A DNA stretch of 64,000 nucleotides from an uncultured Spirochaetota bacterium (lineage in GTDB: Bacteria; Spirochaetota; Brachyspiria; Brachyspirales; Brachyspiraceae): NCBI GenBank assembly GCA_944390575.1, contig CALXQJ010000001.1, positions 124,001 through 188,000 of the forward strand, given 5' to 3'. Every line of letters begins with the position of its first letter. The stretch's first letter is position 1. Shown here in pieces: positions 4,407 to 9,265 of the stretch. Below the pieces are notes generated by a model. The model did no database searches. It was given only the letters and a program-made list of their open reading frames with translations, and had not been told where the DNA came from. The translations under genes were made by a program, and so were the position numbers.

Positions 4407-5099
4407 TTAATTATATAAATTAAGATAATAGCTATATAGCTCTCTTTTAGTGCTATATAGCGTTATTCCCTTTATAGGACTACGTTTTAATGTAAGCGTT
4501 GCTATTTTTACTTTGTTATTATTAACTCTAATAATTCTTTCTCTAATAGAACTTATTATTTCATTAGATAACTTATTATTATATATATTATTAACATCAA
4601 AACTATCTAATATAGAATAATCTATATTATTTATTATCTTAAAAAAATGATTCTCTGTAAATCTACTTGTAAATATAATTAACTTAAGAGTATTATAACT
4701 TAGTAGTACATCAGATAATATTTTATTATACTCAACAATAATAAGGTCTGTATCCTTAGAACTATTTTTATCTTTTCTTCTACACTTCAAAAAAACATCA
4801 GCTATACCTACTTTATTATTAGTAAATAATTCCTTTTTTAGCTTTTTATTTTGTATAAAAAAAGATTTTTCTTCCTGTATTTTATCTTGAAATGAATCAT
4901 ATATAAGTTTCCAAAATTCACTTCTACTACTTGAATAATACCAAGCATTTTCTTTTTTATCTTTAGGTAAAGTATTAAACTTATCAACTTGAGAATATAG
5001 TGGAATAGGAAAGCTACCAAGAATTAAAATTTTCATATCATCAGGAAAAAAATTAATATCTTTAAAAACTCTTGATTCTATTTCATTATCAATCATCAC
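4407..5099 (-). CDS. Uracil-DNA-glycosylase-fold protein
   Basis: This 230-residue protein resembles the UDG superfamily, closest to the hypoxanthine/uracil glycosylases of family 6 type. ILGSFP at residues 26-31 matches the substrate-pocket motif. WYYSSSRSEFW (53-63) matches the YYxxxRNxFW block, and VGIADVFLKCRRKDKNSSKD matches the central segment. The Asn of RNxFW is Ser here, so the exact substrate is uncertain. A base-excision role is inferred from the fold only. The start overlaps the stop of the HNH nuclease gene (ATGA at 5099-5096), giving translational coupling. It is the last gene of a four-gene minus-strand operon. Confidence 0.65.
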   Translation of the reverse strand: MMIDNEIESRVFKDINFFPDDMKILILGSFPIPLYSQVDKFNTLPKDKKENAWYYSSSRSEFWKLIYDSFQDKIQEEKSFFIQNKKLKKELFTNNKVGIADVFLKCRRKDKNSSKDTDLIIVEYNKILSDVLLSYNTLKLIIFTSRFTENHFFKIINNIDYSILDSFDVNNIYNNKLSNEIISSIRERIIRVNNNKVKIATLTLKRSPIKGITLYSTKRELYSYYLNLYN

Positions 5100-5695
5100 T
5101 TACCCCTACATACCATATTTGATACAGCATCAAAACCATCTTCAATAGTAAGTCCCCATTCTTTTTTTATCTTATACCAAGTACGAACATACTCACACTG
5201 ATATTCTTTATTAGGAGGAAGCCATTCAACTGGAGATTTATGACCTTTAGAACGATTTATAGTTTTAGAAACAGCAATTAAATGATTTTTATCTTTTAAA
5301 TAATTATAATACTTATACTTTTTTCTTTTACTCCAATTAGATGCACCACTTTCATAAGCATTTTTTAAAGGTACAAAATGATCTATATCTAAATACTTAG
5401 GGTCAGAAAAATACTCACCACTAAAAACATCATACCATTTGCCATATATAACTTTATTACTCTTTATTATAGGTTCTATTAAAGATTCTTCTATTAAAAC
5501 TTCTTGTCTTGTATTAAATCCATCTCCATCCTCATCTATCCACTTTCCCCATTCTTTTCTATTGTATGAACTTTCTTTTTCTGCATCTTCATAAATTCTC
5601 TTTATATTTCTATAAAAATACAAAGAAAGAAAAACAATGATAACTATAAAAAGTAATATACTAGATTTTCTATTTTTTTTATTAAAATAACTCAT
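5096..5695 (-). CDS. Membrane-anchored HNH nuclease (DUF1524/GmrSD C-terminal-like)
   Basis: This 199-residue protein has one N-terminal membrane helix (about residues 12-28), placing the rest outside the cytoplasm. The nuclease part contains LDIDHFVPLKNAYESGASNW, with D105 and H106 as the likely metal and base residues. It is followed by NHLIAVSKTINRSKGHKSP (N147, K150) and VEWLPP. This is the DUF1524 layout seen in secreted nucleases and in the C-terminus of GmrSD enzymes. A DEDGDGF acidic loop precedes it. The likely job is extracellular or periplasmic DNA or RNA breakdown for nutrient use. The gene overlaps both neighbours by four bases (ATGA), so expression is tied to the M24 peptidase and the UDG-like protein. 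Confidence 0.78.
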   Translation of the reverse strand: MSYFNKKNRKSSILLFIVIIVFLSLYFYRNIKRIYEDAEKESSYNRKEWGKWIDEDGDGFNTRQEVLIEESLIEPIIKSNKVIYGKWYDVFSGEYFSDPKYLDIDHFVPLKNAYESGASNWSKRKKYKYYNYLKDKNHLIAVSKTINRSKGHKSPVEWLPPNKEYQCEYVRTWYKIKKEWGLTIEDGFDAVSNMVCRGK

Positions 5696-6807
5696 AAAAC
5701 TATTAAATCAATAGGGGTATTATTTAATATACTACATCCATCTTTAGTGACAACAGCCATATTCTCTATTCTAACACCCCCAATATTAGGTATATATATA
5801 CCAGGCTCTATAGTTACAACATTTCCACTTTGAAGAGTATTATCCCAAAATGGAGATAAACGTGGAAGTTCATGTATCTCTATACCAACACCATGCCCCA
5901 AGCTATGACCAAAATATTCTCCATATCCATTTGTTTTTATAATATCTCTTGCTATTAAATCTATACTCTTACCGCTAACTGAATGTTTAATTGCTTCTAC
6001 AGATTTTTCATTTGCATCTTTAACAATATTATATATTTTAGACATTCTATCAAAATTATTACCACGTCCAAAAAATAAAGTTCTTGTAATATCACTTTGA
6101 TACCCATTTTTAGAAAGTCCAAAATCTATCAATATATTATCTCCAAATTTAAGCTTTCTCTCAGTTGGCACCCCATGAGGAAGAGAACTTCTCTCCCCAA
6201 ACAATAATATAGTATCAAAAGAAGTTTTATCTCCACCTTCTTTTCTCATTTGATATTCTAACTCTGCTGCTAATTCTTGTTCGGATACACCTTCTTTTAT
6301 AAATGCTAATGTTTTTGTTAATGCTACTTCAGCTTTATTTAAATTTTCTTTTATTATTTTTATTTCTTCTTTTTCTTTTGTAGATCTAATAATATCAATA
6401 TCTATATTAGTTGTACTTACTTTTATAGAATGAGAAGTCATCTTTGATACTATATTATCATATTCATTTAGATAAAGAGAATTTTTTGCTATAGTAAATT
6501 GTTTAATGGATAATTCTTCTAATAATAAATAAAGAGTATCTTCATATAGATTTGCAACCAAAACTACATTTGTATTATCAGTAACTTGACTAGCTACCTC
6601 AAAATATCTAGAATCTACAAGTAAATATTTTTGAGCATTAGAAATAAATAGCCACCCAGCACTACCTTTAAAGCCTGTTAGATAAAATATATTTTCTAAT
6701 TTTGTTATTAATATATTTTCTGTTGTAAGATTTAATAATTTTTCTAATCTACTTTTATAATTAAACTGCTGTTTTTCACTACTTTTTTCTATTTTAATCT
6801 TACCCAT
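5692..6807 (-). CDS. M24 family aminopeptidase P-like peptidase (Xaa-Pro)
   Basis: This 371-residue two-domain peptidase has a creatinase-like N-terminal domain (about 1-135) and a pita-bread catalytic domain. The five metal ligands can be placed: Asp in LIDFGLSKNGYQSD and again at the end of that block, His in GHSLGHGVGIEIHE, Glu in IEPGIYIP, and Glu in GVRIENMAVV. Such enzymes remove N-terminal residues preceding proline. The length fits PepQ/YpdF-type proteins. It starts 12 bases after the AroQ-like gene and overlaps the next gene by four bases, so it is the second member of the operon. Confidence 0.9.
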   Translation of the reverse strand: MGKIKIEKSSEKQQFNYKSRLEKLLNLTTENILITKLENIFYLTGFKGSAGWLFISNAQKYLLVDSRYFEVASQVTDNTNVVLVANLYEDTLYLLLEELSIKQFTIAKNSLYLNEYDNIVSKMTSHSIKVSTTNIDIDIIRSTKEKEEIKIIKENLNKAEVALTKTLAFIKEGVSEQELAAELEYQMRKEGGDKTSFDTILLFGERSSLPHGVPTERKLKFGDNILIDFGLSKNGYQSDITRTLFFGRGNNFDRMSKIYNIVKDANEKSVEAIKHSVSGKSIDLIARDIIKTNGYGEYFGHSLGHGVGIEIHELPRLSPFWDNTLQSGNVVTIEPGIYIPNIGGVRIENMAVVTKDGCSILNNTPIDLIVL

Positions 6808-6819
6808 TTATTATTTATC

Positions 6820-7266
6820 CTACTTATTTGTATTATTAGCTTTAATAGAAAGTATATGTGCTAATGCTAATATATAACTATTAACACCAAATCCTGATAT
6901 AACGCCAATAGCAATATCGGATAAATAACTATGTTTTCTATATTCCTCTCTAGCATAAATATTACTAATACTCACTTCAATAAAAGGAATAGCCGTAGCA
7001 AGAAAAGCATCTCTTATAGCAATAGAAGTATGAGCATAAGCTCCTGCATTTATAATAATATATTTAATATTTTCATCATAAGCCCTATGTATTCTATCTA
7101 TTATGGCACCTTCATAATTAGATTGAAAAAAAGATACTTTAACACCATCTATAATAGCTTCTTTTATCTTATTTTCTATTTCACCAAGAGTAGCAGAACC
7201 TAATATATTTGTTTGTGAAACTCCAAGCATATTAGAGTTAGGACCATTTATAACAAGAATATTCAT
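6820..7266 (-). CDS. Type II 3-dehydroquinate dehydratase homologue lacking catalytic residues
   Basis: The 148-residue protein aligns over its full length with AroQ, the type II dehydroquinase of the shikimate pathway: NGPNSNMLG, QSNYEGAIIDRI, INAGAYAHTSIAIRDA, FIEVSISN, GVISGFGVNSYILAL. The active site is altered. In the family pattern GxREPxxYG the Arg is S17 and the catalytic Tyr is L22. The catalytic His in SNxHARExFR is Y104, and the His of SNHEG is Y51. N73 and E97 are kept. The bases were read directly and confirm these changes. The fold is probably retained while dehydratase activity is doubtful. The protein could bind a ligand or act as a scaffold, or the gene may be drifting. It is the first gene of the operon. 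Confidence 0.8.
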   Translation of the reverse strand: MNILVINGPNSNMLGVSQTNILGSATLGEIENKIKEAIIDGVKVSFFQSNYEGAIIDRIHRAYDENIKYIIINAGAYAHTSIAIRDAFLATAIPFIEVSISNIYAREEYRKHSYLSDIAIGVISGFGVNSYILALAHILSIKANNTNK

Positions 7267-7420: not shown

Positions 7421-9265
7421 ATGTATTTAGAGAATATAAATAGTCCAGAAGATTTAAAGAAATTAAATGTAGAAGAACTTCCTATACTTGCAGAAGAAAT
7501 CAGAGATTTTTTACTCAACAATATATCAAAAACAGGTGGACATTTAGGTAGTAACTTAGGAGTTGTAGATTTAACCATAATTCTACATTATTTATTTAAC
7601 TCTCCAAATGATGCATTTATTTTTGATGTGGGGCATCAATCATATACTCATAAAATTCTAACAGGAAGAAAAGATAAATTTCATACTCTAAGACAATATA
7701 ATGGAATATCAGGTTTTCCAAAAAGAGAAGAATCAAAACATGATATAGAAGAAACAGGACATGCATCTACTTCAATATCATTTGGATATGGTTTATCCAT
7801 TGCTAAAAAATTAAATAATAATGATGGTGAAGTTATATGTATTATAGGTGATGGTGCTATGACTGGAGGTATGGCATTAGAAGCTCTTAATAATATATCT
7901 AATAGTAATATTATAATTATATTAAATAATAATGATATGTCTATAGGAGAAAATATAGGTGCTGTTTCTAAATTTCTTAATAAAAAACTTAATGAGAAGT
8001 TTGTACAAGATGCCTCAAATAAAGTTAGAGATATATTATCCAATTTTCCTTTTGGTGATTTAGCAAATGAAATAATAGATAGAGGTAAAGGAGCTATTAG
8101 AACTTTTTTAGAACCAGGTATTATTTTTAGAAATATGGGTATAAAATACTTTGGTCCTATAGATGGACATAATTATTCAGAATTAATAGATACTTTCACT
8201 ACAATAAAAACAATAAGAGGTCCTAAGATAGTTCATATTAACACTATAAAAGGAAAGGGATATAAATTAGCTGAAGAATATCCTCTTAAATTTCATGGTA
8301 TTACCCCTTTTAATATAGAAACTGGTGATATTATTAATAAGTCAAACGAAAAAACATTCTCTCAATTAGCTGGAGAATGTATGATAGATGAAGCTAAAAA
8401 TAATGATAAGGTAGTTGCAATAACTGCTGCTATGACATCTGGAACTGGTTTAACTCAATATGCAGAAAGTTTTAATGATAGATTCTTTGATGTTGGTATA
8501 GCAGAACAACATGCTGTAACTTTTGCTGTTGGACTTTCTCAAAATAATATTATACCTTTTGTATTTTTATATTCTACTTTCTTGCAAAGGGCATACGATC
8601 AAGTTATACATGATGTGGGTATAATGAATGCTAATGTTAAATTTATGATAGATAGAGCTGGTTTAGTTCCAGATGATGGAGATACACATCAAGGGGTTTT
8701 TGATATTTCTTTTCTACGTATTATACCTAATTTAGTTATAATGGCTCCTGTAGAAGAAAAAGATTTTAGAATGATGTATAAAAAATCAGTAGAACATATT
8801 GGTCCTAAATTTATAAGATATAATAAATCATCTATAAAAACTACAAATAATAATATTATTCCAAGTAGCTTTGAAATAGGTAAAGCACATATTATTAGAG
8901 AAGGAAGTGAATATTGTATTATAAGTTATGGACCTACTTTAATTGATATTATAGATGCTGTAGATGAATTAAAATATAATATAACTGTTATAAATCTACA
9001 AACTATAAAACCATTAGATGAAAAAACAATTTTAGAGAATATAAAAAAACATAATAAAACACTAGTAATAGAAGAGAGTATAAAAAAGGGTGGAGTAGGA
9101 AGTAGTATTTTAGAATTATTATCAGAAAATGAAATATATAAGGCTGTAAAAATACATGCTCTACCAGATAAATTTTTTGAAGTAGCAACAAGAAATCAAC
9201 TATTAAAATTATATAAATTAGATAAAGAAGGATTAAAAGAAGTTATATCAAACTTTTTTAATTAA
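7421..9265 (+). CDS. dxs: 1-deoxy-D-xylulose-5-phosphate synthase
   Basis: This 614-residue, thiamine-diphosphate-dependent enzyme condenses pyruvate and glyceraldehyde-3-phosphate in the first step of the MEP isoprenoid pathway. SKTGGHLGSNLG and FDVGHQSYTHKILTGR are the N-terminal active-site blocks. GDGAMTGGMALEALNN is the ThDP/Mg motif with its downstream Asn, and DVGIAEQHAVTFAVGL contains the catalytic Glu. LVPDDGDTHQGVFDISFL is the pyrimidine-domain signature. The length is normal. The gene stands alone with its own promoter at 7355-7383 and a hairpin after the stop. The start is the first ATG after the promoter. Confidence 0.97.
   Translation: MYLENINSPEDLKKLNVEELPILAEEIRDFLLNNISKTGGHLGSNLGVVDLTIILHYLFNSPNDAFIFDVGHQSYTHKILTGRKDKFHTLRQYNGISGFPKREESKHDIEETGHASTSISFGYGLSIAKKLNNNDGEVICIIGDGAMTGGMALEALNNISNSNIIIILNNNDMSIGENIGAVSKFLNKKLNEKFVQDASNKVRDILSNFPFGDLANEIIDRGKGAIRTFLEPGIIFRNMGIKYFGPIDGHNYSELIDTFTTIKTIRGPKIVHINTIKGKGYKLAEEYPLKFHGITPFNIETGDIINKSNEKTFSQLAGECMIDEAKNNDKVVAITAAMTSGTGLTQYAESFNDRFFDVGIAEQHAVTFAVGLSQNNIIPFVFLYSTFLQRAYDQVIHDVGIMNANVKFMIDRAGLVPDDGDTHQGVFDISFLRIIPNLVIMAPVEEKDFRMMYKKSVEHIGPKFIRYNKSSIKTTNNNIIPSSFEIGKAHIIREGSEYCIISYGPTLIDIIDAVDELKYNITVINLQTIKPLDEKTILENIKKHNKTLVIEESIKKGGVGSSILELLSENEIYKAVKIHALPDKFFEVATRNQLLKLYKLDKEGLKEVISNFFN

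Follow-up and report, generated by a model that had tools for sequence, protein, structure and literature searches.

The window, the whole 64,000-nucleotide stretch of DNA analyzed here, carries a homolog of type II dehydroquinase (AroQ, which acts in the synthesis of aromatic amino acids) in which residues central to catalysis are replaced, and the question it raises is what such a protein, here called AroQ′, is kept for. The nearest named loci to the window are those of Brachyspira, a genus of gut spirochetes, to which the genome belongs. The ORF, profile matches and alignment define aroQ′ as a gene encoding 148 amino acids (6820–7266, minus strand), with S17, L22 and S99 where the family has its catalytic Arg, Tyr and His. 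The preliminary description of this DNA had placed an intact frame at the head of a translationally coupled operon, and our reading agrees: the frame is whole, with its ATG at 7266 and its stop ending at 6820, and aroQ′ leads a tight row of minus-strand genes. A pepP-like M24 aminopeptidase of 371 amino acids (5692–6807, assigned by ORF, Pfam and gene-order comparison) has its ATG at 6807, 12 nt downstream of aroQ′, and is followed at a 4-nt overlap (5692–5695) by a 199-amino acid ORF with a GmrSD_C domain in Pfam (5096–5695). The last member of the row is a 230-amino acid ORF (4407–5099), again with a 4-nt overlap (5096–5099). The head of the row is marked by the divergent upstream neighbor dxs (1-deoxyxylulose-5-phosphate synthase; 7421–9265, plus strand; ORF and Pfam). 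The 230-amino acid ORF had no Pfam match but has a conserved counterpart in at least one further Brachyspira genome (L152:190–879).

Profile and fold searches both place AroQ′ in the type II dehydroquinase family. The sequence matched Pfam PF01220 at 3e-50 and scored 173.3 bits against the TIGR01088 aroQ model, passing the cut-off of 169.85 by 3.5 bits. It aligned end to end with solved type II dehydroquinases, sharing 41–53% identity with intact AroQ from outside the family and 61–73% with AroQ of the sister genera. An AlphaFold2 monomer model built from 32 sequences had a mean pLDDT of 87.9, with the lid and residues 101–110 as its least certain internal parts, and its nearest PDB folds were all type II dehydroquinases, from many species.

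Work on the M. tuberculosis and H. pylori enzymes has assigned roles to the active-site residues (PMC6011038). Essential in the lid are an Arg (Arg19 in M. tuberculosis, Arg17 in H. pylori) and a Tyr (Tyr24 and Tyr22); the neighboring subunit supplies an essential Asp (Asp88′ and 89′), the acid is a His (His101 and His102), and supporting residues are Arg108/109, Arg112/113 and Asn75/76 (PMC6011038). In the numbering of the window protein these positions are S17, L22, D86, S99, R106, R110 and N73. Both essential residues are thus replaced in the lid loop that covers the substrate (codons 17–22, S-Q-T-N-I-L; 7201–7218, minus strand; Arg17 and Tyr22 by alignment, roles from PMC6011038), and codon 99 (6970–6972, minus strand) encodes Ser at the position of the acid-catalyst His (His101 in M. 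tuberculosis). D86, R106, R110 and N73, equivalent to Asp88′, Arg108, Arg112 and Asn75, are kept. For comparison, 86 other AroQ sequences were gathered: a similarity search supplied members of many phyla, and the rest came from the same phylum and from two sister genera. All three of Arg, Tyr and His were invariant in 86/86, in a set that is not exhaustive and misses at least B. subtilis YqhS, in which Phe stands for Tyr. The preliminary description had thus correctly recognized the replacement of Arg and Tyr and the retention of Asn73 and Glu97. It erred in setting the catalytic His against Y104, a column in which 56 of 83 intact enzymes themselves have Tyr; the His aligns to S99.

These losses extend across the genus. 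We compared 18 whole AroQ′ sequences from 17 Brachyspira genomes, one of which (G002, 7% contamination) has two. The lid Arg is A or S and the base Tyr is F or L in 18/18, while the acid His varies (H in 11, S in 4, R in 3) and D86 is present in all. One group (G016, G017 and G024) additionally lacks H79, S101 and R106, whereas most of the pocket is kept in 11/18 sequences, and the lid motif AQT-[KE]-[IV]-FG is conserved across most of the genus. The comparison of orthologs proposed in the preliminary description showed a genus-wide loss of Arg and Tyr, free of random decay, in which the replacements of Tyr and His vary (L or F at 22; S, H or R at 99). Of the 24 family-invariant columns, defined by one residue in at least 97% of intact enzymes, 19 show no change in any Brachyspira sequence, and the five that did change all lie in the active site (P = 0.003 counting nine active-site columns, P = 0.014 counting the seven named in PMC6011038). 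Measured against the active family, the catalytic motif has been lost. Assembly error or chance was rejected as the source of the substitutions, as the Arg and Tyr losses recur in 17 independently assembled genomes.

The window genome (2.0 Mb, 99.8% complete) contains a single PF01220 gene. A search for a second dehydroquinase, as had been suggested, found a type I AroD, so AroQ was rejected as the sole dehydroquinase of the genome. The start of aroD overlaps the end of aroE (L002, 561–1463 for aroE and 1447–2208 for aroD), both products have the expected Pfam domains, and AroB and AroC are also present. AroD keeps the Schiff-base Lys and the catalytic His by which type I enzymes work. It is more diverged than other Brachyspira AroD (L002:1447–2208, plus strand; PF01487 at 6.5e-53, compared with 1e-58 to 1e-65), and its C-terminal ASAPGQ substrate loop contains a two-residue insertion (SLSNNLGQ). 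Full-length AroD was found in 24/26 Brachyspira genomes. The two others are G020, which is 85% complete and also has no pepP match, and G024, in which the gene enters a run of N; G024 was for this reason discarded as a candidate species with a broken AroD.

An AroQ match was found in 18/26 Brachyspira genomes, comprising the 17 with whole frames and B. alvinipulli, whose copy (L039:7980–8433) is frameshifted near codon 35, where the sequence is rich in A; the shift may be a sequencing error. In the remaining eight aroQ′ is absent. The pepP locus could be read in seven of these. Species without aroQ′ retain pepP behind other upstream genes, and tblastn found no aroQ remnants beside it. In three genomes of sister genera (G042, G043 and G044) an intact AroQ, with R, Y and H, lies directly before pepP, and no AroD was found in them at 96–99% completeness; the aroQ-pepP order also occurs in G033. 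The window species branches off first within Brachyspira when pepP is used for the tree, and the species lacking AroQ form two later groups, some inner support being below 75; in the AroQ tree all Brachyspira sequences form one clade (100/99). As Brachyspira has AroD and the sister genera lack it, AroD seems to have taken over from AroQ in the stem of Brachyspira. The simplest history would be a gain of AroD and a catalytic loss in AroQ in that stem, followed by one or two losses of AroQ. Among solved AroD structures the closest in sequence is PDB 3js3, the Clostridioides difficile enzyme, which would fit a Firmicute donor.

Within the AroQ tree, the window and G010 (L021) sequences have S17/L22 in common, where the others carry A17/F22, and they cluster (94/96) although they are far apart by pepP. 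A basal position for the window lineage was not rejected (AU p = 0.149). The likeness may reflect a recent transfer or recombination of aroQ′, or a retained ancestral state.

The preliminary description had also proposed that the gene is selected for something else, and codon analysis bears this out as far as selection goes, the other role being inferred from that selection. The proposal also agrees with each of the checks suggested there that were carried out. Under a one-ratio model for the same 12 genomes, omega was 0.028 for aroQ′, 0.029 for pepP and 0.035 for aroD. Because deep branches are saturated for synonymous changes, shallow pairs were also counted, giving dN/dS of 0.03–0.11 for aroQ′, 0.01–0.10 for pepP and 0.04–0.21 for aroD. 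The pocket-eroded G016/G017/G024 group gave 0.06–0.07 for aroQ′, and the window paired with G010 gave 0.116 (pepP 0.238, aroD 0.270). Purifying selection on aroQ′ is thus strong, at about 0.03 overall and 0.03–0.12 pairwise, as expected of a retained pseudoenzyme; among all copies only that of B. alvinipulli is broken, and random decay was rejected, since all comparisons gave a dN/dS far under 1. Relative to pepP, AroQ′ evolves somewhat faster within Brachyspira (distance ratio 0.46–1.7) than AroQ does between sister genera (0.28–0.62; pairs computed), so its constraint is perhaps mildly relaxed, and far from lost.

We consider it likely that AroQ′ is an ancestral AroQ whose catalytic task passed to an acquired AroD and which was kept as a pseudoenzyme for a non-catalytic role. 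The gene would be the ancestral spirochete aroQ, unmoved from its original site next to pepP. The conversion of 3-dehydroquinate to 3-dehydroshikimate would have been taken over in the Brachyspira stem by AroD, sited with aroE. AroQ would then have lost the lid Arg and Tyr, and abstraction of the C2 proton should have ended: no Tyr would mean no base for that proton, and no Arg would leave a base neither positioned nor activated. The window protein additionally lacks the acid His. With the base, its activating Arg and, in the window, the acid gone, useful dehydroquinase activity is expected to be absent, judging from the residues. The flavodoxin-like subunit, and probably its oligomer, would have been maintained for a scaffold, binding or regulatory role, with His99, His79, Ser101 and Arg106 lost later in separate lineages. 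At least three groups have lost pocket residues while constraint elsewhere persisted, and for this reason we think that the substrate pocket matters less to this role than the body and oligomer of the protein. The role is dispensable, as eight Brachyspira genomes lack the gene and B. alvinipulli has it frameshifted.

A less probable explanation, though one that we take seriously, is that AroQ′ is a changed enzyme, slowly dehydrating dehydroquinate with other residues or performing a new reaction on a related ligand. The pocket (N73, H79, D86′, E97 and R110, with H99 in most species) is largely kept in 11/18 sequences and the lid motif is itself conserved, a pattern that in most Brachyspira AroQ′ would fit ligand binding or changed chemistry as well. 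Some residual activity is possible, because B. subtilis YqhS, with Tyr changed to Phe and Arg kept, is reported to be active. Against catalysis of this kind, no Brachyspira sequence retains the Arg, and both Arg and Tyr are called essential in studies of the S. coelicolor, M. tuberculosis and H. pylori enzymes; moreover, separate lineages, the window (S99) among them, have lost H79, H99, S101 and R106 with no relaxation of selection. It is also conceivable, if rather doubtful, that AroQ has an old second, non-catalytic function tied to the pepP neighborhood, and that Brachyspira separates the two functions. If true, active AroQ of other bacteria would share a hidden role.

There are two further readings, and we hold both to be very improbable. 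On one, aroQ′ is an unselected, redundant relic decaying towards loss. Its absence from eight genomes, the broken B. alvinipulli copy and the progressive erosion of the pocket would suit such a relic, but this is opposed by the low dN/dS throughout and by whole frames in 17 genomes over the full age of the genus, when random substitution at the divergence seen would have put a stop in most copies. On the other, the frame is kept merely for translational coupling to pepP and the genes behind it, as the 12-nt spacing and the 4-nt overlaps might suggest. For coupling, however, an open frame suffices and a conserved protein is not needed, whereas the amino acid constraint on aroQ′ equals that on pepP, and pepP persists behind other upstream genes in species without aroQ′.

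A retained pseudoenzyme would make Brachyspira a natural experiment in which a core metabolic enzyme gave way to an unrelated isozyme, lost its catalytic residues at the base of the genus and yet was kept for the age of that genus, so that it can be tested whether AroQ has a job beyond dehydroquinate. It also calls for caution in annotation, as a probably inactive AroQ′ passes the TIGR01088 equivalog cut-off and is called an enzyme. Metabolic models or target lists that take AroQ as the Brachyspira dehydroquinase would point at the wrong protein. A literature search, covering few subscription papers, found no account of a type II dehydroquinase pseudoenzyme or of Brachyspira aroQ.

Compared with AroQ proper (PF01220, TIGR01088), AroQ′ shares fold, length and the 19 unchanged invariant columns, and with AroQ of the sister genera also its genomic place beside pepP. 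It differs in the lid Arg and Tyr, gone in all Brachyspira, and in the acid His, which the window species has lost along with two further groups. In another spirochete family, G029 has two copies of a 306-amino acid AroQ-AroQ fusion (L195:143–1063, minus strand; L196:208–1113, plus strand), in which the first domain has the full set of Arg, Tyr and His and the second has Phe for the acid His (EVFISN); by its residues this is possibly an independent pairing of an active with an inactive AroQ.

A partial parallel among type II enzymes is B. subtilis YqhS (PDB 1gqo). As in AroQ′ the catalytic Tyr is replaced, by Phe, in a genome that also has a type I AroD, and yqhS adjoins the pepP homolog yqhT, as aroQ′ adjoins pepP. 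Unlike AroQ′, YqhS keeps Arg and His and has reported activity in vitro, with a kcat of 10.5 per s (PMC4314829), for protein isolated from E. coli, a host with an AroD of its own. In PMC4314829, 25 of 391 genomes carry both types, AroD as well as AroQ. Given this report, a change of Tyr to Phe is not decisive by itself, and by analogy loss of Tyr alone need not abolish AroQ activity. For a retained dead dehydroquinase there is one precedent, in reverse: in C. albicans it is the type I domain of Aro1 that is dead and the type II enzyme Dqd1 that is active (PMC9074039). Like AroQ′, the Aro1 domain has active-site substitutions and is kept while the other type carries out the step. Unlike AroQ′, it is part of an essential multi-enzyme (PMC9074039), so that its retention needs no separate function. 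In pairing a lost catalytic motif with a retained fold and continued selection, AroQ′ resembles pseudoenzymes in general (PMC10211241).
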